A program made the position numbers and the translations under genes. Under the pieces are notes generated by a model, which saw nothing but the letters and a program-made list of their open reading frames with translations, was not told the DNA's origin and searched no databases. From Desulfobacteraceae bacterium (GTDB lineage: Bacteria > Desulfobacterota > Desulfobacteria > Desulfobacterales > Desulfosarcinaceae): a stretch of DNA of 64,000 bases. Positions 4,711 to 50,419 of the stretch are shown here, one piece after another. Each line of letters starts with the position of its first letter. Positions within the stretch are counted from its first letter, which is position 1. The stretch spans positions 124,001-188,000 of the forward strand of contig QZKV01000065.1 of assembly GCA_003599575.1 (NCBI GenBank), read 5' to 3'.

Positions 4711-4743
4711 AGCGGACTTTGAATCGCTTTTTCCAGGAAAAGA

Positions 4744-5379
4744 CTATTCGCTGTAAATGACCGCCAATATCTTCGCCTGCCCGTCTTGTGCCGTCAGCAG
4801 ATGGGGCGTGGCGGAAAGATAATAAGCGCTGTCCCCGGGCTGCAATTCGAAACGTTCCTCGCCAATGCGCAGCAAAACGGTCCCTTCCAGGACATGAATG
4901 AATTCTTCCCCGCCGTGCACGGACAGCTCGTCGTCCGGCATCTCTTCCAGTTGCACCATCAGGGCTTCCATATGCCGGCCTTTAACTTCCGGCGCCAGAC
5001 TCATATAAGTGTAAGCCGAACGTTGCCCGCGCGAAGAGGAAGACCGGGTCACCACCTTGCGCTCGTCCCTGCGCGTGACGGCATACAGCTTCTGGCCTTC
5101 ACCGGCGATGAGACGCTGCAGGGCGCTGTCCAAGGCCTTGCTGAGTTTGATGATGGTACCCAGCTGGGGACTGATGGCGTTTCCTTCGATGTCGCGCAGC
5201 GTTTTCTCATCAAAACCGGTCAGGTGCGACAACTCGCCGATGGAGAGTCCCTTTTCTTCGCGCAGCCGGCGGATGCGGTCGCCGATCTGTTCGCGGCAGA
5301 TATCGTGGCAGGGCGCAATGTCGCCGGTGAGATCTTCAAAATAGTCCACGTTGATCGGCGGTTTTTTTTCATTTTCCAT
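4744..5379 (-). CDS. XRE-family transcriptional regulator with C-terminal cupin domain
   Basis: N-terminal HTH (IGDRIRRLREEKGLSIGELSHLTGFDEKTLRDIEGNAISPQLGTIIKLSKAL) and cupin (VHGGEEFIHVLEGTVLLRIGEERFELQPGDSAYYLSATPH); start chosen at MENEKKP. Confidence 0.9.
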   Translation of the reverse strand: MENEKKPPINVDYFEDLTGDIAPCHDICREQIGDRIRRLREEKGLSIGELSHLTGFDEKTLRDIEGNAISPQLGTIIKLSKALDSALQRLIAGEGQKLYAVTRRDERKVVTRSSSSRGQRSAYTYMSLAPEVKGRHMEALMVQLEEMPDDELSVHGGEEFIHVLEGTVLLRIGEERFELQPGDSAYYLSATPHLLTAQDGQAKILAVIYSE

Positions 5380-5381
5380 GG

Positions 5382-6560
5382 TCACTCTCCTTGTTTGGTC
5401 CGCAGATGCTCCGGCAGGGCGGCCTTCGCGCCCCAACCCTCGGGCATTTTCTGGCCAGGCTTCTCCTTGCGTTTTTCTTTGCGCACCTTCAATCCCGGGC
5501 GGGCGTAACCCGGATGCCCCTCTTTAATGGTGCGCCCGTTGATGGCCGCCTCGGAGCGCAGGCGCTGGCCCACTGTTTTTTCCATCTGGCGGCCCAGCCA
5601 GAGAATACGATCCACATCATAACTGTGTTCAATGCCCATTTCATCGATCTGCACCAGCAGATCCTCCAGGCACACCAGGCCGACAAAGCGCGGATCGTCA
5701 TAGTAGTAATCGCCGGTGCCCGGCACGGGGCAGTCGTCCAGGAAATTGGAAGGCTGGCCGCCCATGCCCCCCAGAGTGGCCTCAAAATGACAGATCCCGG
5801 CCTGCAAGGCCGCCAGGACCGACGCCGAGGCCACACGCTTGGTCTCATGAAAATGGGCAATGTGCAAGCGCGTATCGGGTATCGCATCCAGAATCATGGC
5901 GAAGTAGCGATACACCTGGGGTGCGGAGGCGCTGCCGTCGTGGTCGGCATGCTCGATGTCGTCGGCCCCGATCTCAAGCCAGCGCTTGGTGAACTCAACC
6001 GCATCTTCCAGAAGTGTGGCGCCGCCGATGGGGCTGCCCCAGATCGTGCTCACCGTTCCGCACATCTTGATGCCCGCGGCGCGGCATTTGCGGATGCAGC
6101 GCTCGGCTTCGGCCCAGTACTCGGGCAGGGTGCAGCCCGAATTGGCGAAATGATGTTCTTCTTCGGTGGAGACCATCATCAGCACGCGATCGGGTCCGAT
6201 GCCCTGCTCGCGCAACCGGATGGCACGATCCACGGCCGGTTCGCGGATGGTGATGGCCGTCAGCACGAGTTCGTCATAGTTGATGCCCTTGCGCGCGCAG
6301 CGTTCCTTGAAGCGCTCGCTGCGCAGATGCTTGAACAACACTTCGGCATCTTCGAACTGGGGCATCAGGAACGGATTGCCCAGGTTGGTCACCTCGATGT
6401 TGCGGCAACCCGCAAAAATCAGCTCCTCCAGGTAGAAGATCTTGGCACGCGTGGAGATAAACTTCTCCAAATGCTGGAACCCGTCACGAATGGTGATATC
6501 GCCGATGGTGACCTTGCGCGGCATGCGTGGAAAGATCTTCCAATAATCATACTCGGTCAT
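5382..6560 (-). CDS. HMGL-like (pyruvate carboxyltransferase / HMG-CoA lyase family) enzyme
   Basis: TIGDITIRDGFQHLEKFI start of TIM barrel, HIAHFHETKRVASASVLAALQAGICHFEATLGGMGGQ motif. Confidence 0.85.
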   Translation of the reverse strand: MTEYDYWKIFPRMPRKVTIGDITIRDGFQHLEKFISTRAKIFYLEELIFAGCRNIEVTNLGNPFLMPQFEDAEVLFKHLRSERFKERCARKGINYDELVLTAITIREPAVDRAIRLREQGIGPDRVLMMVSTEEEHHFANSGCTLPEYWAEAERCIRKCRAAGIKMCGTVSTIWGSPIGGATLLEDAVEFTKRWLEIGADDIEHADHDGSASAPQVYRYFAMILDAIPDTRLHIAHFHETKRVASASVLAALQAGICHFEATLGGMGGQPSNFLDDCPVPGTGDYYYDDPRFVGLVCLEDLLVQIDEMGIEHSYDVDRILWLGRQMEKTVGQRLRSEAAINGRTIKEGHPGYARPGLKVRKEKRKEKPGQKMPEGWGAKAALPEHLRTKQGE

Positions 6561-9547: not shown

Positions 9548-10234
9548 CTAAGATGCGTGCTGTACTTTTTCAAGCAGAATCCGCCTGCCGTCCGCGCTCA
9601 ATCCCAGGCTGTCGATCTCGCGGGCCAGCTGCGCAGGGCTGCCGTAACCGCCGACGTAGCCGTTAAGGCGCGTTACAGCCGTCGAGCGCACGAAATCGGA
9701 GTGCCGCGGATAAATCAGCGACATCTCCCGCGCCAAATCGGTCTGGCGTTTCAGAATATATTTCTGATGATAATCCTCCGCCGGGGTAAAGAAGCGCACC
9801 GGAAGTATTTCGCTTCCCACCGCGCGGCCGAGCCGCCGTTGCACCTCCGCCTTGGATGCCATAGCGGCTTGCCGCTGGCGCTCGTCATGGTAAAAGACCG
9901 CATTCAGGTACTGGCGGGACCACCCATGGCTCTCCGGGTGGTGGCTGTTCCAGAATACGGCCAGCAGCGCCGCGTAGCTGGTGCGCCGGGGGTCGAAATC
10001 GATCTGCACCGTCTCGGTGTGATCGCCCAAATCCGCGTAAGTCGGAGATGCCATGCGGCCGCCGGCATACCCCACGAATGTCCGAATGACGCCCTCGATA
10101 GCCCCGAACCGGGACTCGATGCCCCAGAATCAGCCCAATCCGAAATAGGCCGTTTCAAAAACCGCCGGGGCCGCCGCATCGATGGGCGGCTGCGCCGGAG
10201 CGGATGACACGTCGGTACGATATGCTGATCTCAT
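9548..10234 (-). CDS. msrA: Peptide-methionine (S)-S-oxide reductase MsrA, predicted selenoprotein (UGA at 10132..10130, Sec35)
   Basis: ORFs 10130..10312 and 9548..10075 are in the same frame; joined translation ...[34 protein letters not shown]...GDHTETVQIDFDP...; UGA occupies the catalytic Cys position of GCFWG; no other Cys in the protein; ATG at 10234 with GGAG upstream. Confidence 0.88.
10100..10116 (-). promoter_or_regulatory. Candidate bacterial SECIS apical stem-loop in msrA
   Basis: Minus strand AGTCCCG-GTT-CGGGGCT: 7-bp stem (one T:G wobble), 3-nt loop beginning with G, 20 nt after the UGA. Confidence 0.6.
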
Positions 10235-32519: not shown

Positions 32520-32702
32520 GTCCCAAAGGCGGCTGCACGATCTTTTAAGGTGCTACCAAAGGTTTGCCTTGCGCTGCTTCTCGAATTTTGGCTTGCCGGC
32601 ATTGAGTTGCGGTCATTTTTTTCATACGGCTTGCTTGACGAAAGTCAAATCGAGGGGCCTTAAAAGCAGAAATTAATCTTGACAACTGAGAGGTAAATTG
32701 CA

Positions 32703-32714
32703 ATTGTCGACAAT
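32703..32714. promoter_or_regulatory. Predicted GntR operator ATTGTCGACAAT upstream of the SucCD-like operon
   Basis: Perfect 12-bp palindrome, 24 bp from the start of TTGACA (32679..32684); same architecture as 23429..23440. Confidence 0.65.
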
Positions 32715-32733
32715 CGACAATGCAGGAGGCGCT

Positions 32734-33921
32734 GTGCGTTTACTGGAGTTTGAAGCCAAATCAATCTTAAAGCGGTACGGCATTGCCACGCCATTGGGTG
32801 CGGTATTATCCGAAGGGGAAACGCCTATCAACAATTTTTCCGGGCCGGCCATGCTCAAGGCCCAGATTCCGATCGGCGGACGTGGTAAAACGGGAGGGGT
32901 CGTAACTGCGCAAGAGGGTCCCGGATTGCATCGGCAGGTTGCAGGGCTGTTCGCAACCAAGATCCGGGGCTACCGTCCAAAGAAGCTGCTGCTTGAAGAA
33001 AAAATGGATATTCAACGTGAGTTTTTCATGGCGATCACCTATGACACGGTCGCCAAAGCGCCTGTGGTCATCTTCTCCAGTGAAGGCGGAGTCGATATCG
33101 AAAAGCTGGCCCAACGCGAGCCGGAAAAGATCTGCACGGAACATTTTTCCTTTCGCGACGGCCTGCCCGAACACAAGGCCCGGCAGATTGTCGCCGAAAC
33201 GGGCATCTCCGGCAAACTGCTGCTGGGGATAGGCACGGTGCTGGCCAAGTTGGCCAAAGTCTTTATCGAAACCGATGCCACGATCGCAGAAATCAACCCG
33301 CTGGCATTGATTGGTGCGGGGCAATTGATCGCATTGGATTGCCACCTGGATGTTGATGACGACGCCTTGTTCCGGCACCCGGACATAGCTCAGATCGAGA
33401 AAGACGGATCCAGGATTGAATCCGCCCAATCCCAGAGCGATTTCGAGCGCAAAGCAGCCCAGATCGACAGCGTGGATCACAGGGGGGTGGCCGGACGCGT
33501 CATCGAATTCGAGGGGAGTTTGGGCCTTATTATCGGCGGCGGGGGCGCCTCCCTGACCGCTTTTGATGCGGTGCGCGCCCATGGTGGCAAGCCGGCCAAC
33601 TACTGCGAGATCGGCGGCAATCCTTCGGTCAAAAAAGTGAAGGAACTGACCAAGCATATTCTTTCCAAGCCAGGTGTGGAAAAGGTGGCGGTTATCATGA
33701 ATGTGGTCAGCAACACCCGAGTGGATCTGGTCGCACGCGGCATCATCAAGGGCATCATCGAAGCCGGTAAAGATCCCTCGAAGACTGTGGCCGTGTTCCG
33801 GATACCGGGCGCCTGGGAGGAAGAAGGTTTCAAGATTCTGAAAAAGTACGGTGTCCGCTACTGCGACCGAAAAACTTCCATTGACGAAGCAGCGCAGATG
33901 GCCGTGGCAAACGCGCGATAA
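32734..33921 (+). CDS. Succinate/malate--CoA ligase beta subunit-like ATP-grasp protein
   Basis: LLEFEAKSILKRYGIATPLGAVLSEGE; LKAQIPIGGRGKTGGV; EINPLALIGAGQLIALDCHLDVDDDA; GTG start with AGGAGG. Confidence 0.9.
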   Translation: MRLLEFEAKSILKRYGIATPLGAVLSEGETPINNFSGPAMLKAQIPIGGRGKTGGVVTAQEGPGLHRQVAGLFATKIRGYRPKKLLLEEKMDIQREFFMAITYDTVAKAPVVIFSSEGGVDIEKLAQREPEKICTEHFSFRDGLPEHKARQIVAETGISGKLLLGIGTVLAKLAKVFIETDATIAEINPLALIGAGQLIALDCHLDVDDDALFRHPDIAQIEKDGSRIESAQSQSDFERKAAQIDSVDHRGVAGRVIEFEGSLGLIIGGGGASLTAFDAVRAHGGKPANYCEIGGNPSVKKVKELTKHILSKPGVEKVAVIMNVVSNTRVDLVARGIIKGIIEAGKDPSKTVAVFRIPGAWEEEGFKILKKYGVRYCDRKTSIDEAAQMAVANAR

Positions 33922-33942
33922 TCAGCCGAAAGGGGATGTGCG

Positions 33943-34836
33943 ATGTCGATATTGGCCAATAAGGAGACGCGGGTCATCGTTCAGGGAATAACCGGACGGG
34001 AGGCTTCCGCGTTTACCAAGGATATGATGGATTACGACACCACGGTTGTGGCCGGCGTGACGCCCGGCAAAAAGGGCCAGTCAATCCACGGAGTGCCGGT
34101 TTTCGATACGGTGCGGCAGTCCTTGAAAGCGCATCCGGCCGATGCCACCGTCATTTCGGTTCCACCGGCATTGGTCAAAGGGGCCGCCCTGGAAGCGCTC
34201 GAAAACGGGATCAAACTGCTGGTGATCGTATCCGAGCGCGTACCGCGCAGGGATACCATCGAGATCCTGGAAATCGCCAAAGAACAGGGCGCCAGGGTCA
34301 TCGGCCCCAATACGCTCGGACTGATTTCCCCCGGCATGATCAAATTGGGAATGGCGGGAGGACCGGTGGAGGATGTCCGCAAGGCGTACACGCCGGGTCC
34401 GGTGGGGATCGCCTCGCGCAGCGGCGGAATGACTACCGAGGTGGCCAATCTGCTGACCACCAACGGCATCGGGCAAAGCACCTGCATCGGGATCGGCGGC
34501 GACCCGGTGGTCGGATCCAATTTTCTGGATTTGATTCCGCTGTTCGACCAAGACCCTGAAACCAAAGCCGTCGTGCTGTTCAGCGAGCCGGGCGGCGTCA
34601 TCGAAGAGCGTCTGGCCGACTATGTGAAAGAAAATGAAATCAGGATGCCTATCATCGCTTTCATTGCCGGCCGTTTCGTAGATGAAATGCCCGGCGTGCG
34701 CTTCGGGCATGCCGCAACGATCGTCGAGGGGGATCGGGGCAGCGCGCGCGGCAAAATCGCCCGGCTCAGAGATGCCGGCATCCATGTGGCGGATGCTTTT
34801 TCGGACATCGTGCGTATAGCCAAAGAGAATATCTGA
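33943..34836 (+). CDS. Succinate/malate--CoA ligase alpha subunit-like protein
   Basis: VIVQGITGREASAFTKDMMDYDTTVVAGVTPGKKG; GPNTLGLISP; GVRFGHAATIVEG (phospho-His motif). Confidence 0.92.
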   Translation: MSILANKETRVIVQGITGREASAFTKDMMDYDTTVVAGVTPGKKGQSIHGVPVFDTVRQSLKAHPADATVISVPPALVKGAALEALENGIKLLVIVSERVPRRDTIEILEIAKEQGARVIGPNTLGLISPGMIKLGMAGGPVEDVRKAYTPGPVGIASRSGGMTTEVANLLTTNGIGQSTCIGIGGDPVVGSNFLDLIPLFDQDPETKAVVLFSEPGGVIEERLADYVKENEIRMPIIAFIAGRFVDEMPGVRFGHAATIVEGDRGSARGKIARLRDAGIHVADAFSDIVRIAKENI

Positions 34837-35439: not shown

Positions 35440-36348
35440 ATGAAAGCAATCGATTTATTGAGGTCGGCCCTGTTTGTCCCCGGCAACCGGCCCGAGCGCA
35501 TCGACAAGGCTGTGGCCACGGCGGCCGATATCGTGATCATCGATCTCGAAGATGCCGTGCCGATCGCCGAAAAAAAAGCCGTGCTTCCGATCGTGCGCAA
35601 AAAGCTGAACGAGCACAGGACGCACCGGATGATGGTGCGTGTTAATGCCTTTGAAACCGGCCTGACCCAAGGCGATCTGGCCGGCATCGTCGGGCCGGGA
35701 GTCTGCGCGGTCATGCTGCCCAAAGTGCAGAGCGCTGCAGACATCGTGCACATGGCCAAACTCATCCTGGCGGCGGAAGACGCCTCGGGCATCGAACGGG
35801 GCTCACTGGGCCTGGTGGCACTGGTCGAAACGGCCTTGGGCGTGGAAAACGCTTATGCGATTGCGGCCGCGCAAACCCATCCGCAGCGTCTCCACACGAT
35901 TGCTTTCGGTGCAGCGGATTTCACTTTGGACATGGGGATAAGGATATCCAAAACCGGGGAAGAACTTGCTTTTCCGCGGGCCAGGATCGCAGTGGCCTGC
36001 CGTGCGGCGGGTATCGCCCCACCGCTGGACACACCCTGGATGATCGATCTGAAGGATCGCGAGGCGTTTGAGGCCGATGTCGTTCGGGGAAGGTGTTTAG
36101 GCTATCGAGGCAAACTGTGCATCCACCCCAATCAAGTCGATTTCTGCAACCGGACGTTTTCGCCCTCGGAAGAAGAAATCGTTTTTGCCGCCAAGGTGGT
36201 TGAAGCCTTTGAAGCGGCTGAAGCCGCCGGGCAAGCGGCCATACAGGTGGAAGGCAAATTCGTCGACTACCCAGTGGTCGCGCAGTCCAGAAGAATTTTG
36301 GCGTTTGCAGATACAATCGGCCGAGTGGCGATAACTGACAAGCAATAG
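35440..36348 (+). CDS. HpcH/HpaI-family CoA-ester lyase (malyl-/citramalyl-CoA lyase or citrate lyase beta-like)
   Basis: LLRSALFVPGNRPERIDKAVATAADIVIIDLEDAVPIAEKKAV; GLVALVETALGVENAYAIA; GKLCIHPNQVDFCN. Confidence 0.92.
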   Translation: MKAIDLLRSALFVPGNRPERIDKAVATAADIVIIDLEDAVPIAEKKAVLPIVRKKLNEHRTHRMMVRVNAFETGLTQGDLAGIVGPGVCAVMLPKVQSAADIVHMAKLILAAEDASGIERGSLGLVALVETALGVENAYAIAAAQTHPQRLHTIAFGAADFTLDMGIRISKTGEELAFPRARIAVACRAAGIAPPLDTPWMIDLKDREAFEADVVRGRCLGYRGKLCIHPNQVDFCNRTFSPSEEEIVFAAKVVEAFEAAEAAGQAAIQVEGKFVDYPVVAQSRRILAFADTIGRVAITDKQ

Positions 36349-37378: not shown

Positions 37379-38200
37379 ATGGCGGATGCGGTGTCTGTAG
37401 TCAAAAGAATGAACCTGAAGGTTCAGCCATTGGTCGAATTTTTTGAAAGGCTGGCGAGTATCCGGGGCTGGCCCTTTCTGGCCTCCTGGGCCCACCGCGT
37501 CACCGGGGTAGTGTTAGTTGTTTATATCGGCTTTCACATCATCACTTTATCCTCCTTGATCGACCCTGTAAAATTCGATGCCAAGATGAAAATACTTGGC
37601 TTTGTGCTCTTCGTCTTTCTGGAATTTCTACTCGTTTTGCCCGTGATCTACCATGCGCTCAACGGCGGCCGGGTGATCCTCTACGAGGTATTCGAGTATC
37701 GGCGCGACCAGATGGTTCTCCTGTGGGTGGTTGCTCTGGGCGCCCTTTACACCTTCTTGCTGGCCTTCTTCATGATAGCCGGAAACCAGAGTGTTTCAGC
37801 GCCTTTTTTCTGGGTCTACACGGCGGCCGCCGCTGGTTGCGTGACCTATATCACGGTCAAAAAGCTCCGCGCATCCGGTGCTTCCGTGTTCTGGAAGTTT
37901 CAACGGATTTCCGGCGCATTTCTTTTCCTGATGGTGCCTGCGCATATGCTCTTTATGCATCTCAACCCGGCCATGGGCCACGATTCCCAGGTCATCATCG
38001 CGCGCATGGGCAATCTCTTTATCAAGATCGTCGATCTGGGCCTGGTGGCCGGTGTGCTCTACCACGGGGGCTACGGCCTCTACTCCATCGGTCAGGATTA
38101 CATTACTTCATCGAGGGCCAAGACCGGTATGCTGGCAGTGCTGATTTGCATCGCCCTGGTATTCGCCTGGAAAGGCCTCAAGCTGATCGTGCTGATCTAA
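37379..38200 (+). CDS. Succinate dehydrogenase/fumarate reductase-type cytochrome b subunit, apparently SdhC-SdhD fused
   Basis: WAHRVTGVVLVVYIGFHIITL...YHALNGGRVILYE (SdhC-like) followed by FWKFQRISGAFLFLMVPAHMLFMHLNPAMGHD...VLYHGGYGLYSIGQDY (SdhD-like). Confidence 0.82.
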   Translation: MADAVSVVKRMNLKVQPLVEFFERLASIRGWPFLASWAHRVTGVVLVVYIGFHIITLSSLIDPVKFDAKMKILGFVLFVFLEFLLVLPVIYHALNGGRVILYEVFEYRRDQMVLLWVVALGALYTFLLAFFMIAGNQSVSAPFFWVYTAAAAGCVTYITVKKLRASGASVFWKFQRISGAFLFLMVPAHMLFMHLNPAMGHDSQVIIARMGNLFIKIVDLGLVAGVLYHGGYGLYSIGQDYITSSRAKTGMLAVLICIALVFAWKGLKLIVLI

Positions 38201-38212
38201 CAAGGAGCCGCC

Positions 38213-40009
38213 ATGCAAGCAGATTTCAAAATAAGCGCCACCATTCGGTGTGATGCGCTGATCATCGGCGCGGGCGGCGCGGGACTGCGCTGCGCCGCGG
38301 AAATCCTGGAGCGCAAGCCCGATGCGCAGATCATTGCCTTGACCAAAGTAGCGCACCCGCAGAAATCGCATACATCGACCGCCCAGGGCGGACTGGCCGC
38401 CGTCGATCCCCGCGATCCCAACGACGCCAACATTTTCCACATGTTTGATACGTGGAAAGGGTCCGATTGTACCGCTGATCAAAACGTGGTCAAGAAAATC
38501 TGCGAGTCGGCCTGGGAGCAGATCTTGTGGCTGGAAAACCGCGGGATGCATTTTTCGCGCGACCAGCAGGGCCGCCTCAGCAAGCGTACATTCGGGGGCC
38601 ACACGCGCAATTTTGGAGAGGCTTCGGCCTTCCGCGCCGTCTTCGAGGCCGACCGGACCGGCAAAGGCATCATGGATACCGGCTGGGGAGAGTGCCTGAA
38701 GCGCGGCATTCGCTTTATCCACCAGTGCATGGCGGTTGAATTGCTGATCAAGGACCGGCAGTGTACCGGCTGCATCGTTTTTCAGCAGAAAACAGGCACC
38801 TTTGTGCAGATCCTGGCCAAGGCGACCGTTTTCGCCTCGGGCGGCAGCGGCCAGGTGTTCAAGGTGACGACCAACTGCCGGCAGAACACCGGAGACGGCC
38901 TGGCCCTTGTGCTGGAAGCCGGTCTGCCGGTCATGGACCCGGAGGCGGTTCAATTTCATCCGACCGGCATTGTGGGGCCCGGTATTCTGGCCAGTGAAAC
39001 GCTGCGTTCGGTGGGCGGCATTTTGCGCAACAAAGACGAAGAGCCTTTTATGGCCAAATACGCCCCCAAGATGAAAGAGCTCGCGCCCAGGGATTTGGTT
39101 GCCCGCGCCATCGAAACGGAGATTCGTGAAGGCCGGGGCATTCTGAACCCGGATCACAATATCCCGCATGTCTGGATCGATCTGCGGCACCTGCCGGCCG
39201 AGGTGCACGAACAGCAGATTCCGGAAGTGGTCAGCTTCTTCAAACACTATGTCAATCTGGACCCGCGAACCGAGCTTTGCCCTGTCCGGCCGAGCAACCA
39301 CTACCATATGGGCGGTATCCCGACCAACGAATTCGGCGAGGTTCAGGATGCCCGTCAAAGAATCGTGGAAGGACTCTATGCCGTGGGCGAGTGCGCTGCG
39401 GCCAGCTTCCATGGCTTTAACCGGCTGGGCACCAATTCGATCCTGGAACTCATCACCATGGGCAAGCACATCGGCGAACGGGTGATAGAACGGCTGGGCA
39501 AGGAGTCATCCGTGAGATCCGATGCCCCGGCCGAGCGCTTTCGAGAGAAATTCACGGGCTATTTCGCCGCCGGCGGACAAGACAACATCGGCCTGATCAG
39601 AAACGCCTTGCGCTCGGTCATGACCGATAAAGTCAGCGTATTTCGCACGGAGACCGGCATCACTGAAGCGATCGAAACCCTGCGCGAACTCAAGGTGCGG
39701 GCGCGGAGAACCCAAATCGGCGGACAAAGCCTGGCCATGAACCAGGAGCTTGTGCAACGCTGGGAAATCGACAACCTGCTGGCCGTGGCGATGGCGATTT
39801 GTGAAGCGGCCTTGCACAGAAAGGAATCGCGCGGCGCTCATTTCCGGGATGATTTCCCCGTGCGCAGCGATGATTTCAACTATCACACCCTGGTGAGCAT
39901 GCCGGAATTCGGAAATGCGGAACTCGGCCGGCGGGAGGTGGATATGAGCATCTTCCAGGCTCGAGGAGCAACATACGAGAAATTTGGCATCATCGAACGT
40001 AAATACTAG
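38213..40009 (+). CDS. Fumarate reductase/succinate dehydrogenase-like flavoprotein subunit
   Basis: ALIIGAGGAGLRCAAEIL; HTSTAQGGLAAVDP; VQFHPTGIVGPGILASE; NHYHMGGIPTNEFGEV; SFHGFNRLGTNSILE. Confidence 0.92.
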   Translation: MQADFKISATIRCDALIIGAGGAGLRCAAEILERKPDAQIIALTKVAHPQKSHTSTAQGGLAAVDPRDPNDANIFHMFDTWKGSDCTADQNVVKKICESAWEQILWLENRGMHFSRDQQGRLSKRTFGGHTRNFGEASAFRAVFEADRTGKGIMDTGWGECLKRGIRFIHQCMAVELLIKDRQCTGCIVFQQKTGTFVQILAKATVFASGGSGQVFKVTTNCRQNTGDGLALVLEAGLPVMDPEAVQFHPTGIVGPGILASETLRSVGGILRNKDEEPFMAKYAPKMKELAPRDLVARAIETEIREGRGILNPDHNIPHVWIDLRHLPAEVHEQQIPEVVSFFKHYVNLDPRTELCPVRPSNHYHMGGIPTNEFGEVQDARQRIVEGLYAVGECAAASFHGFNRLGTNSILELITMGKHIGERVIERLGKESSVRSDAPAERFREKFTGYFAAGGQDNIGLIRNALRSVMTDKVSVFRTETGITEAIETLRELKVRARRTQIGGQSLAMNQELVQRWEIDNLLAVAMAICEAALHRKESRGAHFRDDFPVRSDDFNYHTLVSMPEFGNAELGRREVDMSIFQARGATYEKFGIIERKY

Positions 40010-40053
40010 AACAAAACCGCGCTGCAGCGGACTTTTCAACGGCAGGTAAAGCT

Positions 40054-40761
40054 ATGACGACATATGACATCACTCTGAAAATACACCGGTACGATCCTGA
40101 TCAGGAAAAATCGTGGGTGCAGACCTACCAGCTGAAAGCCGGGCGCATCATGCGGTTTGTCGATCTGCTGCGCAAAATCAATGACGAACAGGACCCGACC
40201 CTGGCCTGGGGATCTTCCTGCGAACACGGGCAGTGCGGCACCTGTTCCATGAAAATCAATGGCAAACCGCTGCTGGCGTGCGAACTTCTCGTGGAAAACG
40301 CGGTCGCTCAATTCGGCACGACCACTTTCAAGGTCGAACCCCTTGATGTAGCGCCCATCGTGCGCGACCTGGTGATCGACACGGAAAAGGCATACCAGAG
40401 GCTCGACAAGATCAAACCCTACATCATCAATCCCAAGCCGCAGCCCGGTGAAGGCAAGGAACACCTGATCGACCCGAAGGCGTTGGAGCGCTACGTGGCG
40501 GCGACCCGCTGCATCAATTGCTTTTGCTGCACCTCGGCCTGCATGTCCGGCCATAAGAATTTCCTCGGCCCCAACGCCATGCTGGCCACCATCGTACGGG
40601 TAATGGATCCGCGCGAGCAGGAGAAAGCAGAACGGCTGCAATGCTTGTACAGCAATGAAGGGGTGTACCGCTGCCATTCGTCCCAGGCCTGCTCGTTTGT
40701 CTGTCCCAAAGAGATCGACGTGGCCCATTATATTGCGCTCGCCAAAGCCGGAACGCTGTAA
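40054..40761 (+). CDS. Succinate dehydrogenase/fumarate reductase iron-sulfur subunit
   Basis: CEHGQCGTCSMKINGKPLLAC; CINCFCCTSACMSG; CHSSQACSFVCPKEID. Confidence 0.93.
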   Translation: MTTYDITLKIHRYDPDQEKSWVQTYQLKAGRIMRFVDLLRKINDEQDPTLAWGSSCEHGQCGTCSMKINGKPLLACELLVENAVAQFGTTTFKVEPLDVAPIVRDLVIDTEKAYQRLDKIKPYIINPKPQPGEGKEHLIDPKALERYVAATRCINCFCCTSACMSGHKNFLGPNAMLATIVRVMDPREQEKAERLQCLYSNEGVYRCHSSQACSFVCPKEIDVAHYIALAKAGTL

Positions 40762-40799: not shown

Positions 40800-40887
40800 A
40801 ATCGTACCCGTACGCGTACTCAGGGAAGCGGTCCTCGTACGCGAATGGGTTAAGGGTTCGAGTACGAGCACGCGTACGCGTACGATT
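40800..40887. repeat. Palindromic GTACGCGTACG-rich repeat element between frdB-like and fumarase-like genes
   Basis: AATCGTACCCGTACGCGTACTC ... GAGTACGAGCACGCGTACGCGTACGATT. Confidence 0.8.
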
Positions 40888-40927
40888 GGTGGCAGGATGG
40901 CTGGATTCGAACTTTGAAGGTGCCAAG

Positions 40928-41767
40928 ATGCGCGAGATCCTAACGGAAGAAATTACGCGGCACGTTCGCGATCTGGCCATGCGGGCCGCAACGGATCTCG
41001 GAGATGATGTGCGCGATGCCCTTGAGCGGGCGCAAGCGGCCGAGACTTCGCCGACCGGCCTCGACATCCTCGGCCGGCTGATTGAAAATGCGGACATTGC
41101 CCGGCGTGAAAAAATTCCGATGTGCCAGGACACCGGCATGGCCGTGGTGTTCATCGAAATGGGGCAGGAGGTGCACATCCAAGGCGGCTTGCTGACCGAA
41201 GCCATTCATGAAGGGGTCCGGCAGGGCTATGCGGACGGATACTTGCGCAAAAGCGTCTGCGATCCCATCACCCGGCAAAATACGGGGGACAACACGCCGG
41301 CCGTGATTCATCTGGAGCTCGTCGCAGGCGAACGCTTCAAGATCACCCTGGCCCTGAAAGGTTTCGGATCGGAGAATATGAGCCGCGTCACCCTGCTGCC
41401 GCCGTCCGCCGGCATCGAAGGCGCCAGGGATTTCATCGTTCAGCGGGTGGCCGAGGCGGGTCCCAATCCCTGCCCTCCCACCATTATCGGTGTGGGTATC
41501 GGGGGGACAATGGAAATGGCTGCCCTAATGGCCAAGAAGGCCTTGCTGAGACCTTTGGGTTCAACCCATCCCGATCCGCAAATCGGCCGTATGGAAAGCG
41601 AATGGCTGGCGCGCATCAACTGCCTCGGTATAGGACCGCAGGGTCTGGGAGGAAGGGTGACCGCCCTGGCGGTGCATATCAATACCATGCCGACCCATAT
41701 CGCCAGCATCCCGGTGGCCGTAAATATTCAGTGCCATGCTTCCCGGCATAAAGCGGCCGAACTTTGA
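40928..41767 (+). CDS. Class I fumarate hydratase family, alpha (N-terminal) subunit
   Basis: PMCQDTGMAVVFIEMGQEVHIQGG; GVRQGYADGYLRKSVCDP; GFGSENMSRVTLLPPSAG. Confidence 0.92.
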   Translation: MREILTEEITRHVRDLAMRAATDLGDDVRDALERAQAAETSPTGLDILGRLIENADIARREKIPMCQDTGMAVVFIEMGQEVHIQGGLLTEAIHEGVRQGYADGYLRKSVCDPITRQNTGDNTPAVIHLELVAGERFKITLALKGFGSENMSRVTLLPPSAGIEGARDFIVQRVAEAGPNPCPPTIIGVGIGGTMEMAALMAKKALLRPLGSTHPDPQIGRMESEWLARINCLGIGPQGLGGRVTALAVHINTMPTHIASIPVAVNIQCHASRHKAAEL

Positions 41768-41817
41768 TTCAGCCCCAAGAAGGCTTGGATTTGACGGGAA
41801 CCTACAGAGGTGAGGAA

Positions 41818-42384
41818 ATGGATTCGACGGTCCATCTGCAAACCCCCTTGGACTCGGCAGGGGTTGAAAGCCTGCGCTCCGGCGACCGGGTGTTGCTCAG
41901 CGGGGTCATCTACACGGCCCGGGACGCCGCTCACAAACGCCTGGTGGCGATCATTGCAGAAAATGGTGCCCTGCCCTTAGATTTGGAAGGACAGATCATA
42001 TACTATGTCGGACCCACGCCCGCCAGACCGGGCGCGCCGATCGGCGCGGCCGGGCCGACCACCAGCTACCGGATGGACCCTTACGCCCCCGCATTGATCG
42101 CGCGCGGCTTGAAAGGCATGATCGGAAAAGGCGTGCGCGGGCCTTCGGTGAAGGAAGCCATGCGACGGTTCAAGGCCGTTTACATGGCGGCCATCGGAGG
42201 CGCGGGGGCGCTCATGGCCCAATCGGTGCGATCGGCCGAGATGGTGGCCTATCCGGAACTGGGCGCCGAGGCGATCCGGCGCTTGGTCATCGAGAATATG
42301 CCCTTGATCGTGGTCAACGATACCTGCGGGGGCGATTTATACGAAGAAGGCATGAAGGCCTACAGGCGCCCGTTCACTTCATAG
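41818..42384 (+). CDS. Class I fumarate hydratase family, beta (C-terminal) subunit
   Basis: LRSGDRVLLSGVIYTARDAAHKRLV; IYYVGPTPARPGAPIGAAGPTTSYRMD; RBS GAGGTGAGGA before ATG 41818. Confidence 0.9.
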   Translation: MDSTVHLQTPLDSAGVESLRSGDRVLLSGVIYTARDAAHKRLVAIIAENGALPLDLEGQIIYYVGPTPARPGAPIGAAGPTTSYRMDPYAPALIARGLKGMIGKGVRGPSVKEAMRRFKAVYMAAIGGAGALMAQSVRSAEMVAYPELGAEAIRRLVIENMPLIVVNDTCGGDLYEEGMKAYRRPFTS

Positions 42385-42454
42385 TGAAAAGCTGGCGTGC
42401 CCATACAGGCCGTTTCTGGATGCCGATCTATCAACTCTAGGATTGGAGGGTAGC

Positions 42455-43846
42455 ATGCAAATCGCGCGAAGGGTGGCCCAACTCACCCGGGAATTGACGT
42501 ATGCAAACCTGGATGGAGCGGTGGTAGACCGCACCAAATATCTGCTGCTCGACTTTCTGGGCGTCGCGATTCGCGGTTCCCGGAGCGATTCCTCGCAATT
42601 GGTGCAGCGCTTTCTCTCCGTCAACCATGCGCCCCCATCTCACGGTGTGCCGGTCATTGGAACAAACACACGCGCGGAAGCATCCTTTGCAGCTCTGGCG
42701 AACGGCACCGCCGCGCATTCCATAGAGCTGGACGACGTGGTCAATGCCGCTTCGCTGCACCCCGCGGTGACGGTCATGCCGGCGGCGCTTTCCGCAGCGT
42801 ACCTGTCCGGGTGTTCGGGGCCTGAATTGCTGGAGGGCATCATCGCCGGCTATGAACTGACCGTCAAGCTCGGCATTGCCCTGGACCCGGCGGCGCACTA
42901 CGCGCAAGGGTTCCATCCGACCGGAACCTGCGGGAGCTTTGGATCGGCGCTCGCCGCGGCCAAGATCCTCAAACTGGACGCCGAAAAAACAGCCCGGGCG
43001 CTGGGCATTGCCGGAAGTCAGGCCGCGGGCTCCCTGGAATTTCTGGCGGATGGATCCTTTACCAAAAGACTGCATGCCGGTTGGGCGGCGCACGCCGGTT
43101 TGATCGCCGCACTTCTGGCGCGCGAGGGATTCACGGGCCCCACCAGCATCATCGAAGGCCGCTTGGGCTTCCTGCACGCCTACTCACCGGTATTCAGGCC
43201 CGAAAAGGTGCTGCACGGATGGGGCGATCCCTATGAAATCATGCGAACCAGCATCAAGCCCCACGCCTGTTGCCGCTACAAACAGGGGCCGATCGATTGC
43301 ATACTGGGAATCATCAAGCAAAACAGCCTGGCTGAAAATGATATTGAAAAGGTGGTGGTGAGCGTTCTCAAAGCAGGGGCGGCCCTTGTAGCGGAACCGC
43401 GGGCCAGCAAACTGAATCCGCAGAGCATCGTCGATGCCCAATTCAGCATGCCCTTCGGCGCCGCCATGGCGATTATCTACGGCCGCGCGTTTCTGGATCA
43501 ATATTGCCAGGAAAATATCGATTCGCCGAGGGTCCGTGATTTGATGCAGCGCGTCCATTGCGTCGAAAACGCCGAGATAGAGAAGGAATTCCCGCGCAAG
43601 TGGCCTGCGGAAGTTGAAATCCTGACCCGCAAGGGCAGCAGCTACCGTCAACGGCTTGAATATCCGAAGGGCGACCCCGAAAACCCGCTTTCCTGGGATG
43701 AAATCATCGATAAGTTCAACAACCTCGCTTCAGCCGTTTTCAGTAAGGAACCGTGCGGCGCCATCGTCGACCGCGTGCGAGCGATTGAAGAAGAATCGGA
43801 TATCAGAGGTTTTATAGACTCCCTGGCCGCCGCTGCATCGCAATAA
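42455..43846 (+). CDS. MmgE/PrpD family protein (paralog 1)
   Basis: DRTKYLLLDFLGVAIRG; ANGTAAHSIELDDVVNAASLHPAVTVMPAALSAA; GFHPTGTCGSFGSALAAAKIL; IKPHACCRYKQGPIDCI. Confidence 0.92.
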   Translation: MQIARRVAQLTRELTYANLDGAVVDRTKYLLLDFLGVAIRGSRSDSSQLVQRFLSVNHAPPSHGVPVIGTNTRAEASFAALANGTAAHSIELDDVVNAASLHPAVTVMPAALSAAYLSGCSGPELLEGIIAGYELTVKLGIALDPAAHYAQGFHPTGTCGSFGSALAAAKILKLDAEKTARALGIAGSQAAGSLEFLADGSFTKRLHAGWAAHAGLIAALLAREGFTGPTSIIEGRLGFLHAYSPVFRPEKVLHGWGDPYEIMRTSIKPHACCRYKQGPIDCILGIIKQNSLAENDIEKVVVSVLKAGAALVAEPRASKLNPQSIVDAQFSMPFGAAMAIIYGRAFLDQYCQENIDSPRVRDLMQRVHCVENAEIEKEFPRKWPAEVEILTRKGSSYRQRLEYPKGDPENPLSWDEIIDKFNNLASAVFSKEPCGAIVDRVRAIEEESDIRGFIDSLAAAASQ

Positions 43847-45231: not shown

Positions 45232-45618
45232 ATGTCGCGTGAACTCTTTGAAAAAGGTCTTGAAGTCCGCCGCGAAGTATTGGGAACCGAATACGTGGAT
45301 GCCGCCATATCCCAAGCCGACGATTTCAGCCGCCCGCTTCAGGAGCTGGTAACCGAATACTGCTGGGGAGCCGTATGGACCCGGCCGGGACTGAGCCGCA
45401 AAATGCGCAGCATGATCAACCTGGCCATGCTCACCGCACTGAACCGGCCGCACGAGGTAAAGCTCCACCTGAAAGGCGCCCTGAAAAACGGCTGCAGTAA
45501 AGAGGAGATCATGGAGGTGTTGCTGCAAACCGCAATCTATTGCGGCGTTCCGGCGGCCGTAGACAGCTTTCGCCTGGCCCGGGAGGTCTTCAAGGAAGTC
45601 GAGACCGCAAAGAAGTGA
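45232..45618 (+). CDS. Carboxymuconolactone decarboxylase (AhpD-like) family protein
   Basis: GLEVRREVLGTEYVDAAI; RSMINLAMLTALNRPHEVKLHLKGALKNGCSKEEIMEVLLQTAIYCGVPAAVDSFR. Confidence 0.92.
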   Translation: MSRELFEKGLEVRREVLGTEYVDAAISQADDFSRPLQELVTEYCWGAVWTRPGLSRKMRSMINLAMLTALNRPHEVKLHLKGALKNGCSKEEIMEVLLQTAIYCGVPAAVDSFRLAREVFKEVETAKK

Positions 45619-45768
45619 TCCGGAAGCATCGCAACACCCCGGTTGCGTTGGTATCAAAAAACAAAAGAAAGGAGGCGGCGCTTCGAAGGATGTTCATTAA
45701 TCGGGCCTAAGAAATAGACGCACATGCTTTTCTGGGTCGCTGTCAGGAATGCCTTTGATGCCGGAACC

Positions 45769-47088
45769 ATGGAGATCACAAGAAAACTTGCCGAGTTTGT
45801 CTACCACACAAAGTTTTCGGATATGCCCGATGATGTCGTTCAAAAAGCCAAGGAGTGCTTTCTCGATTGGCAGGGGGTCGCCCTGGCCGGTACCACGGAT
45901 CCGGTTGCAGCAATTGTTGGCAATTATGTGAGATCTTTCGGCGGCCGGCCGGAGGCCAGGGTGATGGGGGCGAATATGCGAACAGACGCAGCTTCAGCCG
46001 CCTTCGCCAACGGCGTGATAGGCCACGCGCTCGATTTTGACGATTACCACGACGAAACCGTTATCCATGCCTCGGCCGCATGCATCCCGGCCGTATTGGC
46101 CTTGGCCGAGCGCAACCGGCTTGGCGGTAAGGATCTTCTGGAGGCAATGATACTGGGTATCGACGTATGCATCCGGATAGGTCTGGGCCTGGGGGACTAC
46201 CATTATCAACGCGGGTGGCACACAACGGCCACGGCCGGCACCTTCGGCGCCACGGCCGGGGTGGCAAAGCTGCTGAAATTGGAGGTGGATCAGATCGCCA
46301 ACGCGTTTGGCATCTGCGGCACCCAGGCCAGCGGGCTGCGTCAGGTTTTTGGAACCATGACCAAGCCGTTTCATGCAGGCAAGGTTTCTCATGAGGGCGT
46401 AATGTCCGCCTTCTTGTCGCACGGCGGATTTACCGCTCCCAAAAATATTGTGGAAGGCGAGCTGGGTCTCTTGGATGTTCTGACCGATGCCCCTGACGAA
46501 GCCGTAATATTAAAGGATTTAGGATCCCGCTGGTACGTTATGGATTTGAGCATAAAGCCCTACCCCACCTGAGCGTGAACGCACTCTGCGATGAATCTCC
46601 TGGAGGAGATTGGGACCCAAAAAAACCTGGACATTGAAAGCATCGAAAAAATCGACCTTGAAATCGGACCGGTGGCCTCTACTGCGGCATCCATCAAGGA
46701 ACCCCAAAAGGGGGTTGAGGGAAAATTCAGCGTTTGGTTTCTGGCTGCCTTGGCGCTTGCGGAAGGCAGTGTCACCTTGGCGAAATTTACCGACGAAAAG
46801 GTAAACGATCCGCGACTGGTGAGACTCAGGCGCAAAATCGAAACCCACCTGGACCCGCGGATCGGTTTTGGCGCGCGCTTCTGTATCCGGATGAAAGACG
46901 GAACCGAGCACAAGGGGTTCCTGGCAAAGCCCAAGGGCGATCCGGACAATCCGCTGAGTTTCGGGGAGTTGACCAAAAAATTCCGCAGCGCGGCTGGACT
47001 GGTAAAGTCCAACAAAGAGGTTGAGGCGCTGATAGCGTCGATTCAGAAGTTGGAGACCGTTTACGATATGAACGATTTAGCCTATTGA
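45769..47088 (+). CDS. MmgE/PrpD family protein (paralog 2), predicted selenoprotein with two in-frame UGA codons (46570..46572 and 46576..46578; Sec268, Sec270)
   Basis: ORFs 45724..46572 and 46591..47088 are in the same frame; joined translation ...WYVMDLSIKPYPT-U-A-U-THSAMNLLEEIGTQKNLDIESIEKIDLEIGP...; C-terminal MmgE domain intact for 166 codons with no other disruption. Confidence 0.75.
46594..46611 (+). promoter_or_regulatory. Candidate bacterial SECIS apical stem-loop in MmgE/PrpD paralog 2
   Basis: AATCTCC-TGGA-GGAGATT: perfect 7-bp stem, 4-nt loop with G in second position; loop begins 28 nt after UGA-1 and 22 nt after UGA-2. Confidence 0.6.
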
Positions 47089-47193: not shown

Positions 47194-49152
47194 CTAACCT
47201 GCGGCTTGCAACATCGCATCGGTCGGCGGGGCGACCCGCCGGTGACAAAAAACCCCAAAGATCGTTGCGGCCATCACCACCACACCCACCATCATGGCTA
47301 TCTTTCCATCCGGATGAAACATGACGATGAATGAAATCAAGGCCAGCGCCATGCGCAGCAAGGCGTTGACACCATGGTTCGTGACGAACCGGCCGAACAT
47401 CGCCGCGGAGATGCCGCAGGTGGAGATCGCTACCAGAAGAGTGTCGGCAACCTGCGCCCAGCCGGGTTCCATAACCATTCCCGGGCGGGTGAAAATAGCA
47501 AAGGACATCAGCGTGATCGGCATACATATTTTTACGGCTTCATACATGGTGCGCATGAAGGAGGCGCCGGCGATCTGGGCGGTGACCGCGGCGGTGAGCG
47601 AGGTCGGCGGCGACAACTCGCCCCAGATGGCGATCAGAAAAGCAAAGAAGTGCGCGACCCACGGATCGATGCCCAGCTGGCGGAGGGGTTCCACGACGAT
47701 GATCGCCATGATGATATAGGTGGCGGTGGGCGGGAGGCCCGCGCCGGCCAGCCAGCCGAAGGCCCAGGCCATCAGGATGGTGGCGATGATGCTCCAGGAG
47801 CCGAGCTCCAGCAGGATGGCCCCCATGCGGTTGATGAAACCGGTCACGGTAAACAGGCCGATCATGATACCCAGGGTCGCCAGCAGCAGCGTCAGATAGG
47901 AGGTCATGTTGGCATGCGTTTCGATGGTCAGACGGATGTTCGTAAAAAGCGTCTCTTTTTCTACCGCCGGGTCCTTGCGCACGTACTTGAAGTAAAGGAA
48001 AGCCAGCAGCAGTAAGATGAACATAAACATGACCGTGTAAAGCGCTGCGAGCAACGCGCCATAGTTCAGCCAGCCCATCAATATGGCCAGGTATCCGATG
48101 GCCAGAAAGAAGATGGAGGTCTTGACCTTGTCATAGAGCGCCACTGCCGGTACTTTAATCGGCTCGGAGGACAACACGCGAACCGAGATCAGATAAATGG
48201 AAAACGAGAGGGTGACGAAATAGACAAAAGCGAGGGCGAATCCGCGCGTCATCACATCCCAATAGGGAACGCCGAGAAATTCCGACATCAGGAAGCCGGC
48301 GACCGCCATGAGCGGAGGCATGATCAGTCCGCCCATGGACGCCCCGACCTCCACTGCCGCGGCAAAAGCCCCCGGCACACCGAACCGCATCATCAGCGGA
48401 ATGGTGAAGCTGCCGGTGACGGCGGCATTGGCCGCTCCGCTGCCGCTCACCATGCCGACCGAGACCGAAGCCAGCACCGCGGTCTGGGGAATGGTGTGGC
48501 GCGACCGTCCGGCGATCCGCCGCATGACCGCGATCATGGCGCTCTGAGCTTCAAACCCGCGGGCCACCGCCGCCAGGAGCAGGAACGCCGCAATCAGGGT
48601 CAGTGCCATCTGGGAATATAGTCCGAAGATGCCCGTAGAAAGTTCGACCGTGCTGGAGGTGACCACCCGGTAGAAGGTGGTTCCCGGATGCCAGAAAAAG
48701 TCGATCGGGCTCAGATATCCCCAAATGGTGTAAACCACCAGAACCGCGTTGATCCAGAACAGGATCGGATGGGCGATGCGTGAAAGCTCCATGACCAGCA
48801 GAAAAATGAGCAGGCCGACGAAGTAGTCCATTCTCGTATAAGAGCCCTGCCGCCAGATTGCGATCTGTTCGTACTGAGTGACGAAATGATAAAAGGTCAG
48901 CAGGCAAATCCCGATGTACAACATCAAGAGGATGTGGTTTGCCGCCGGCGGCAGGCGCTTGTACAGGTAGCCCTCCTGATACATGAACAGCAACTGTATA
49001 ATCAGCGCGATCGGCACAAGATAGCTCGCCAGTTCGACCGGACCGCCGTAGCTGGTGTAAAAGTACCAGATCAGCCAGACGAACATAACGAGTGAAAATA
49101 AGAAGGTAACGTTTTTCAAGTTGATATGGCGGCTGAGCCGGTCACTCGACAT
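47194..49152 (-). CDS. TRAP transporter fused permease subunit (4TM/12TM type)
   Basis: Multi-TM; VSVGMVSGSGAANAAVTGSFTIPLMMRFGVPGAFAAAVEVGASMGGLIMPPLMAVAGFLMSEFLG; AGAGLPPTATYIIMAIIVVEPL; RBS GGGAGGA. Confidence 0.95.
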   Translation of the reverse strand: MSSDRLSRHINLKNVTFLFSLVMFVWLIWYFYTSYGGPVELASYLVPIALIIQLLFMYQEGYLYKRLPPAANHILLMLYIGICLLTFYHFVTQYEQIAIWRQGSYTRMDYFVGLLIFLLVMELSRIAHPILFWINAVLVVYTIWGYLSPIDFFWHPGTTFYRVVTSSTVELSTGIFGLYSQMALTLIAAFLLLAAVARGFEAQSAMIAVMRRIAGRSRHTIPQTAVLASVSVGMVSGSGAANAAVTGSFTIPLMMRFGVPGAFAAAVEVGASMGGLIMPPLMAVAGFLMSEFLGVPYWDVMTRGFALAFVYFVTLSFSIYLISVRVLSSEPIKVPAVALYDKVKTSIFFLAIGYLAILMGWLNYGALLAALYTVMFMFILLLLAFLYFKYVRKDPAVEKETLFTNIRLTIETHANMTSYLTLLLATLGIMIGLFTVTGFINRMGAILLELGSWSIIATILMAWAFGWLAGAGLPPTATYIIMAIIVVEPLRQLGIDPWVAHFFAFLIAIWGELSPPTSLTAAVTAQIAGASFMRTMYEAVKICMPITLMSFAIFTRPGMVMEPGWAQVADTLLVAISTCGISAAMFGRFVTNHGVNALLRMALALISFIVMFHPDGKIAMMVGVVVMAATIFGVFCHRRVAPPTDAMLQAAG

Positions 49153-49207
49153 TGACTGTCCTCCCTTTGGTCCCAAAGTGGGTCATGTTCTGGCGCAGAA
49201 TCCTCAT

Positions 49208-49261
49208 AAAGCGCGAATCGGGGCTGCCTCTTGCAGTTCTCGCATCCACAATTCGCGCTTT
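49208..49261. other. Intercistronic 11-bp perfect inverted repeat between TAXI SBP and TRAP permease
   Basis: AAAGCGCGAAT ... ATTCGCGCTTT. Confidence 0.75.
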
Positions 49262-49387
49262 AATCGGACGAGACATCGCATATGCAGCGGAGTGAGGACC
49301 TGAGACGCCCTCTCATCGCCGGAGTGAGGACCGGAGACGCCTCTTATGCTTATAACCGGACGCTCACCCCGGTATGACTTGGCGAGG

Positions 49388-50419
49388 CTACTTGCCGGCG
49401 ATCTTCCACTTGTCGTTCCAGGCGTTGTGCTCTTTCAGAAACTTGGCCAACCCCGCGTGCACCGGGACATGCGGATTGGCTTTGATGCCGTTGACCTGCA
49501 TGCCGATGAAATTGCGCGCCAGGGGGCGGAAGCCCGGTTCCACCTTGGCCATGTTTTCGCGTTCCTTGTAGAACGCACTCAGCATCTTGTAAACGATCTC
49601 TTCGGGCATATCGGCAGTCACGTTGTAGCCGAAAAGAAGCGGTACGCCCAGGATCTTCTTGACACCCACATCTTTGCTGAAGGCATCAGAGGGCTCAATT
49701 TCCACGGGAGCCAAGCCGGCTTCCTCCAGCTTTTTGATCTCTTCCGGGCTGGGGTTGATCACCTTGATATCCGTGCGCAGTTCGGTTTCACGCCAGTACG
49801 AGGCCAGCGAACGGCCGGCGGTCGTATAGGCCACTGCGCCGACGATGGTGCCGCTCTGCAGCGAATCGGCCTGGGCGGCCTCGCCGATCTGGACGTGCTT
49901 GAACTCATAGCCGAGCGCCTTGAATACACGCATGAAATTCAGCCAGTTCATGAAGCCGGCCGGAGTAAAGAAGACCGGCTTGCCGCTGAAGTCTTTCAAG
50001 CTCTTGAACTGGTCGGCTTTGGAGGCATGCACGGCCATAAACGATTCCATGGGATAGGCGTACCAGGTATGGACCATCAATGACTTGCCGGGTTTATAGT
50101 CCTTGAAGGCGCCCTCGCCGGCGTAGAGCGGGGTCATGCCGACATCGGCCGTATAACCGATCTCGGCTCCGCCATCCATAGTGGCCTTCATGGCGCCGGT
50201 GGTCGATGGGTACGGATTGATCGTGACGGTGTATTCGCCGCCGAGCGCATCCTCGAGCACTTTGCCCATCTGGGCGGCGACTTTGTAACCGTAAGAGCCG
50301 GTGCTGGATGTGGCCCAGCGGATCGATTTGCGCTGTGCATTGGCCGGAACGATCGACGCAAGCATAAAGGCGACGAGAATAGCCGCTACAGATACGACTT
50401 TAGACGTCTTTGACATCAC
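49388..50419 (-). CDS. TAXI family TRAP transporter solute-binding protein
   Basis: Signal peptide; SIRWATSSTGSYGYKVAAQMGKVLEDALGGEYTVTINPYPSTTGAMKATMDGGAEIGYTADVGMTPLYAGEGAF. Confidence 0.93.
   Translation of the reverse strand: MMSKTSKVVSVAAILVAFMLASIVPANAQRKSIRWATSSTGSYGYKVAAQMGKVLEDALGGEYTVTINPYPSTTGAMKATMDGGAEIGYTADVGMTPLYAGEGAFKDYKPGKSLMVHTWYAYPMESFMAVHASKADQFKSLKDFSGKPVFFTPAGFMNWLNFMRVFKALGYEFKHVQIGEAAQADSLQSGTIVGAVAYTTAGRSLASYWRETELRTDIKVINPSPEEIKKLEEAGLAPVEIEPSDAFSKDVGVKKILGVPLLFGYNVTADMPEEIVYKMLSAFYKERENMAKVEPGFRPLARNFIGMQVNGIKANPHVPVHAGLAKFLKEHNAWNDKWKIAGK

Follow-up and report, generated by a model that had tools for sequence, protein, structure and literature searches.

A predicted selenoprotein of the MmgE/PrpD superfamily with two in-frame UGA codons in its active-site loop

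Catalogued selenoproteins are mostly redox enzymes. The MmgE/PrpD superfamily works by an enolate mechanism with His and Tyr as bases, and its catalytic His, Tyr and pair of Lys residues have been assigned (PMC12290011). Methylsuccinate isomerase activity was assigned to the MmgE/PrpD protein of an itaconate cluster, and mesaconate is hydrated to citramalate by class I fumarases (PMC12290011). In human ACOD1 the exchange H277A abolished the activity (PMC11814083). Here we describe a gene of this superfamily in a window, i.e. the whole analysed stretch of 64,000 nucleotides, from a Desulfobacteraceae bacterium (assembly GCA_003599575.1, contig QZKV01000065.1). Its frame is crossed by two UGA codons, and it is very likely to encode a functional selenoenzyme with selenocysteine (Sec, U) decoded at both of them, although this rests on comparative sequence evidence without expression, 75Se or mass-spectrometry data. 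The gene is laid out as follows, in window coordinates.

45769-47088, plus strand: Sec-MmgE/PrpD gene, 439 codons plus stop, with two UGA codons predicted to be read through
46570-46572, plus strand: first UGA, residue 268; predicted Sec in the UxU subclade, Cys in most homologues
46576-46578, plus strand: second UGA, residue 270; predicted Sec common to all 13 UGA genes
47086-47088, plus strand: terminal TGA, taken as the stop; the closest homologue has TAA/TAG at about the same point

The coding span is 45769-47085, and the two UGA codons were the only interruptions of the frame 45724/45769-47088. The start was placed at the ATG at 45769, where close homologues begin too; an alternative in-frame ATG upstream at 45724 is less likely. 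Read-through gives the peptide SIKPYPTUAUTHSAMNLLEE around the UGA codons. The joined protein matched both Pfam domains over nearly their full length, MmgE_PrpD_N at 8.9e-77 (residues 20-257) and MmgE_PrpD_C at 4e-32 (residues 280-443), and no frameshift was found across them. The original prediction of a single MmgE/PrpD frame crossed only by two UGA codons was thus exact, and its numbering of these codons as 268 and 270 holds when counted from the ATG at 45769.

Homologues were collected at three levels. Among about 85,000 species genomes, one scan yielded L041 (84% identity, UAU motif), L042 (76%, UAU) and L043, L044 and L045 (53-60%, UGA at 270 only, 268 being Cys). L081 (G263), L082 and L077 (both G125), L076, L083 and L079 came from searches of whole genomes in the order, and L111 from a search of the phylum. 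As L041, L050 and L085 are the same contig (hereafter L085), and likewise L045 and L093, each was counted once. This leaves 13 genes in 12 genomes, window included, with UGA at residue 270, some of the genomes being metagenome assemblies. Six genes carry UAU (window, L085, L042, L081, L082 and L077; 61-84% identity), four CAU (L043, L044, L045 and L111), two PLU (L076 and L083) and one AGU (L079). A chance UGA is excluded because eleven other genomes have UGA at the same codon, at 38-84% protein identity. A search of 395 genomes of the phylum with a degenerate DNA version of KPYPx(U/C)AU(T)H matched the window alone; the protein searches did better. A plasmid search returned only distant homologues of at most 37% identity. 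The CAU gene L045 (Firmicutes bacterium UBA5766) has an in-frame TAA near the C-terminus (6042-6044), which may reflect decay, an assembly error or a shortened protein.

It had been expected that orthologues would have Cys or UGA at both codons. This proved correct for residue 268, which is usually Cys and never Trp in about 90 UGA-free homologues, but not for residue 270, where the same proteins have A, G, H, L, F, E, V, M, W or similar residues. Only one distant homologue (the second ORF of L117) had Cys at 270. The invariant predicted Sec of the clade is residue 270 and not 268, all UGA genes having UGA there, and it appears to have been gained rather than exchanged for Cys, since homologues almost never have Cys there. 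In a maximum-likelihood tree of 58 proteins, made by a quick search with the UGA codons coded as unknown residues, ten UGA proteins formed one clade (SH-aLRT 96) with UxU nested inside it. Sec268 would accordingly have arisen later than Sec270, replacing Cys in the UxU subclade, whose sister genes have Cys there. L079 fell outside the main UGA clade and grouped with 11 CHA proteins, and at least two changes to Sec are needed because of this separate branching. The L079 gene (6053-7429), from another MmgE/PrpD subfamily (KYHASAGUNHS), appears to have acquired Sec at residue 270 independently, and its hairpin stem is unrelated to that of the main clade.

The position of the two residues was then considered in relation to solved structures. 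In the alignment U268 matches the catalytic His277 of human ACOD1 and Lys263 matches its Lys272, and U268 also falls on a Cys in iminodisuccinate (IDS) epimerase and in Bacillus subtilis IRG1. The assumed correspondence to the KRFPAH segment of IRG1/ACOD1, with the first UGA on the Cys/His position, is thereby borne out. Residues His100, Lys199, Lys263 and His272 were invariant in 24 sequences and Tyr146 nearly so; His100, Tyr146, Lys199 and Lys263, aligned to IDS epimerase, match the published catalytic set (PMC12290011). By sequence, the acid/base framework of the family is intact in the Sec protein. An AlphaFold2 model with Cys in place of Sec had a mean pLDDT of 88.8 and its nearest folds were IRG1 and IDS epimerase (TM 0.85-0.90), so that the fold of the superfamily is present along with both Pfam domains. 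Residue 270 lies at the start of helix 269-285 in the model. By alignment and model, Sec268 and Sec270 would both sit in the active-site K-P-Y-P loop, near Lys263 and at a helix N-terminus.

The genes around the Sec gene were annotated from 28.5 to 50.4 kb, with the following main features.

32698-34836, plus strand: succinate-CoA-ligase-like pair, beta 32698-33921 and alpha 33943-34836; also near the L079 Sec gene
35440-36348, plus strand: CitE/RipC-like HpcH/HpaI C-C lyase of the malyl-/citramalyl-CoA lyase type
37379-40761, plus strand: SDH/FRD-like complex with cytochrome b/anchor (37379), flavoprotein (38213) and Fe-S subunit (40054)
40886-42384, plus strand: class I fumarase-type hydro-lyase, alpha and beta subunits
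42443-43846, plus strand: second MmgE/PrpD paralogue, motif KPHACCRYKQGPID, without UGA
45232-45618, plus strand: carboxymuconolactone decarboxylase-like protein (CMD/PcaC); the L085 copy is 81% identical and directly before the Sec gene
47194-50419, minus strand: TRAP/TAXI transporter, DctM-type permease 47194-49176 and NMT1-like binding protein 49388-50419

On the plus strand the order from 32.7 to 47.1 kb is the ligase-like pair, an HD protein, the lyase, the SDH/FRD-like complex, the fumarase pair, the second MmgE/PrpD, Usp, LUD, CMD/PcaC and the Sec gene. The upstream paralogue and its motif, which had been reported from the sequence beforehand, are real. L085 retains most of the cluster with conserved gene order, including the SDH/FRD-like complex and a 76% identical lyase. 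L042 retains the flavoprotein and part of the fumarase, and the transporter is kept in both. L079, the independent Sec lineage, retains fumarase, CoA ligase and a lyase of 49% identity, and TRAP transporter genes lie near L044 and L083. The content of the window cluster suggests breakdown of C4/C5-dicarboxylates. The PcaC-like protein, which adjoins the Sec gene, barely passed its cut-off of 155.7 with 155.8 bits; the bacterium whose dicarboxylate cluster contains it is presumably an anaerobe. In L042 the gene immediately preceding the Sec gene codes for a shortened fumarase alpha subunit of 139 aa (4389-4808), apparently a remnant. In L046, L084, L083 and L047, in or near the Sec clade, the MmgE/PrpD gene has methylmalonyl-CoA-mutase-like proteins as neighbours, joined at some loci by genes for a B12-binding protein, a thiolase or an acyl-CoA ligase; this setting suggests another branched-acid pathway.

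Because the gene lies in a C4/C5-dicarboxylate cluster, we infer that it most likely acts as an isomerase or lyase and that a substituted succinate is its substrate. Our tentative assignment of function, inferred only and held with somewhat less than even confidence, is a reaction at C2 of a substituted C4-dicarboxylate, either isomerisation or epimerisation, or else addition/elimination. The substrate could be methyl- or alkylsuccinate or its unsaturated acid. By the enolate mechanism of the family, His100 and Tyr146 would serve as bases and Lys199 and Lys263 would stabilise the enolate, while the selenolate, close to where the enolate forms, may provide an additional acid/base or nucleophile. 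The product might then be taken over by enzymes encoded nearby, namely the FRD/SDH-like dehydrogenase, the class I fumarase, the CoA ligase and the CitE/RipC-like lyase. Support for any particular substrate is weak, since the context is not conserved in L081, L082, L077, L076 and L111, where the Sec gene sits amid unrelated genes. Whether this is a first selenium-dependent MmgE/PrpD branch, in which Sec was gained twice at a non-Cys position and takes a direct acid/base or nucleophilic part at carbon on a dicarboxylate, seems to us evenly balanced.

It is possible, though we think it unlikely, that the UxU or CxU motif is a redox switch, in which a diselenide or selenenylsulfide forms and either regulates the enzyme or turns it into an oxidoreductase. 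The motif at a helix N-terminus does resemble known redox motifs, and a CxU form of rhodanese is found in the table of PMC9312934. Yet the catalytic residues are all kept, and Sec270 stands alone in L076, L083 and L079, with Pro or Ala at 268, so that a bond of this kind within the motif is not required.

A doubtful alternative is that Sec270 is a covalent nucleophile which adds reversibly to an unsaturated dicarboxylate and allows cis/trans isomerisation (citraconate/mesaconate). Maleate isomerase uses Cys as a covalent nucleophile in cis/trans isomerisation, unsaturated dicarboxylates are Michael acceptors, and the cluster has a fumarase-type enzyme, which requires the trans acid. There is, however, no direct evidence for such a reaction, and we know of no characterised member of the MmgE/PrpD superfamily that works in this way.

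For decoding of the UGA codons as Sec a SECIS element would be expected downstream, and one candidate was found.

46594-46611, plus strand: SECIS-like hairpin AAUCUCC-UGGA-GGAGAUU, loop 46601-46604, beginning 15 nt past the second UGA

In 13/13 UGA genes the UGA is followed by a hairpin whose apical loop contains G, which is the layout of a bacterial SECIS; most UGA-free homologues lack it. In the main clade it has the same offset as in the window, with the loop G 23 nt past UGA270. The L079 hairpin (GCCAUCGA-GGCU-UCGAUGGC) has an 8-bp stem unrelated to this one, and its loop G lies 17 nt past the UGA; it is present though the underlying protein differs (EASMAI instead of LLEEI). By simple SECIS rules the best hairpin had a mean of -7.7 kcal/mol in 11 UGA sequences as compared to -1.8 in 58 homologues without UGA (Mann-Whitney p=6e-7, only indicative because the sequences are related). 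Against random synonymous recoding the hairpin was stronger than expected in 10/11 UGA sequences (p<=0.025), the exception being L076 (p=0.08). In the main-clade alignment 95.7% of the stem cells pair, compared to 24-63% with the partner slid. Two of the seven stem pairs vary on both sides and four are invariant; in L076 and L083 an A-U pair replaces C-G, so that the stem is kept. The conserved LLEE codons and the hairpin overlap, and the 51-nt stretch folded whole showed nothing unusual (z -0.37). The SECIS evidence is the local hairpin and its comparison among homologues, not the fold of the 51-nt stretch. A scan of the window for further genes with UGA plus hairpin gave two candidates, neither of which was believed.

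The same hairpin bears on whether both codons are decoded. There is a small chance that Sec is inserted at 270 only and that UGA268 is handled otherwise or yields mostly truncated product. Residue 270 is the invariant one, and the same hairpin serves 270 alone in the CAU members, so that it is 6 nt more distant from 268. Even so, the loop G is 29 nt from UGA268, and the spacing published for bacterial SECIS elements is about 16-37 nt from UGA to loop G. UAU is moreover kept in six genes at 61-84% identity, and UGA268 stands in for Cys, which is the usual Sec/Cys exchange. We therefore retain the reading that the hairpin at 46594-46611 would act as the bacterial SECIS of the gene and that SelB and tRNA-Sec would decode both UGA codons.

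The machinery for this was found in the genome of the window. The tRNA-Sec (73.4 bits), selB (374 bits), selA (606 bits) and selD (377 bits, with an in-frame UGA of its own) all scored over their cut-offs. The sel genes are on other contigs of the assembly, which has a contamination of 6.93%. Within the window itself, the msrA cited earlier as a sign of a Sec-using organism is real: it has UGA in its GUFW active-site motif near 10135 on the minus strand and is a known selenoprotein type. A tRNA-Sec above the Rfam cut-off was found in nine other UGA-bearing genomes (G101 and G767 being the same genome in this count, and the L111 genome lying outside the check). No clear tRNA-Sec was found in the partial L043 genome (1.6 Mb), and none in G074, whose homologues have no UGA at the site.

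Purifying selection on the DNA 3' of the UGA codons is indicated by the dN/dS values, which were 0.07 before and 0.11 after the UGA codons for the window gene against L085, and 0.10 before and 0.13 after against L081. A decaying pseudogene, with both TGA as nonsense mutations, is very improbable. Two stops do lie close by in one frame, and decayed copies of the superfamily exist, such as L080 (G028:C1:70000-78000), an MmgE/PrpD homologue split over two frames that is apparently a true pseudogene, in contrast to the UGA genes. This reading was refuted by the same UGA codon in eleven other genomes and by the selection downstream (dN/dS 0.11 past the UGA codons), with no frameshift. Sequencing error as the source of the UGA codons was also rejected. 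Reassignment of UGA in this organism, e.g. to Trp, would account for two UGA codons being read through, but has a negligible chance given that the same gene stops at TGA, the genome holds the full Sec machinery, and residue 268 is mostly Cys and never Trp among homologues. The earlier proposal of Sec rather than decay is strongly supported by the conserved UGA, the SECIS-like hairpin, the sel genes and the purifying selection.

A selenoprotein of the MmgE/PrpD type was not found in the full-text literature or the selenoproteome papers searched, and in NCBIfam 20.0 no dedicated model was matched by the protein. Haft 2023, Haft and Tolstoy 2025 and the Olavius symbiont paper were not covered; earlier description in these is not excluded and the novelty is provisional. 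Sec in an isomerase/lyase superfamily, one member of which makes itaconate, would extend the known roles of selenium, and direct acid/base or nucleophilic chemistry at carbon would, if true, be a rare non-redox role of selenocysteine. Since nature offers U, C, P and A at residue 268, both with Sec270 and without it, the contribution of each residue can be tested. Prediction from Sec/Cys pairs is blind to a Sec whose homologues have no Cys at the site, a blind spot stated by the deep-Sep paper for its own method (PMC12013277). Members of the group are probably under-counted because standard gene calling splits the genes into two fragments.

Compared to known proteins, IDS epimerase (2hp0/2hp3) and the B. 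subtilis IRG1-like protein (7bra) are the best relatives by sequence and fold, with 28% identity. They share the catalytic His, Tyr and two Lys positions with the Sec protein but contain no Sec, having Cys at the position of U268 and Ala at 270. Human ACOD1/IRG1 (6r6u) has the same fold with Lys272 and His277 aligned to Lys263 and U268. It has His rather than Sec or Cys at 268 and Ser at 270; the Sec protein lacks the cis-aconitate decarboxylase hallmark His277, having U268 there, and ACOD1 activity is not implied. Assignment as 2-methylcitrate dehydratase PrpD was not supported either, as the best NCBIfam equivalog reached 71 bits against a cut-off of 950 and TIGR02330 38.5 against 458. The (S)-(R)-methylsuccinate isomerase Msi (PA0881; PMC12290011) is likewise an MmgE/PrpD protein; it acts through an enolate with His and Tyr as bases, and its gene shares a cluster for branched C5-dicarboxylates with that of a citramalyl-CoA lyase. 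It is not reported to contain Sec. Its genes adjoin methylsuccinyl-CoA dehydrogenase in every case, whereas the Sec-gene cluster has the SDH/FRD-like complex instead and no acyl-CoA dehydrogenase among its annotated genes (28.5-50.4 kb). The bacterial CxU/UxxU selenoprotein families (PMC9312934) resemble the present gene in having UGA with a downstream hairpin and Sec near a second Sec or Cys. They are mostly redox proteins and MmgE/PrpD is not mentioned among them, and, unlike in those families, the main Sec of the MmgE/PrpD protein is essentially without a Cys counterpart in its homologues.
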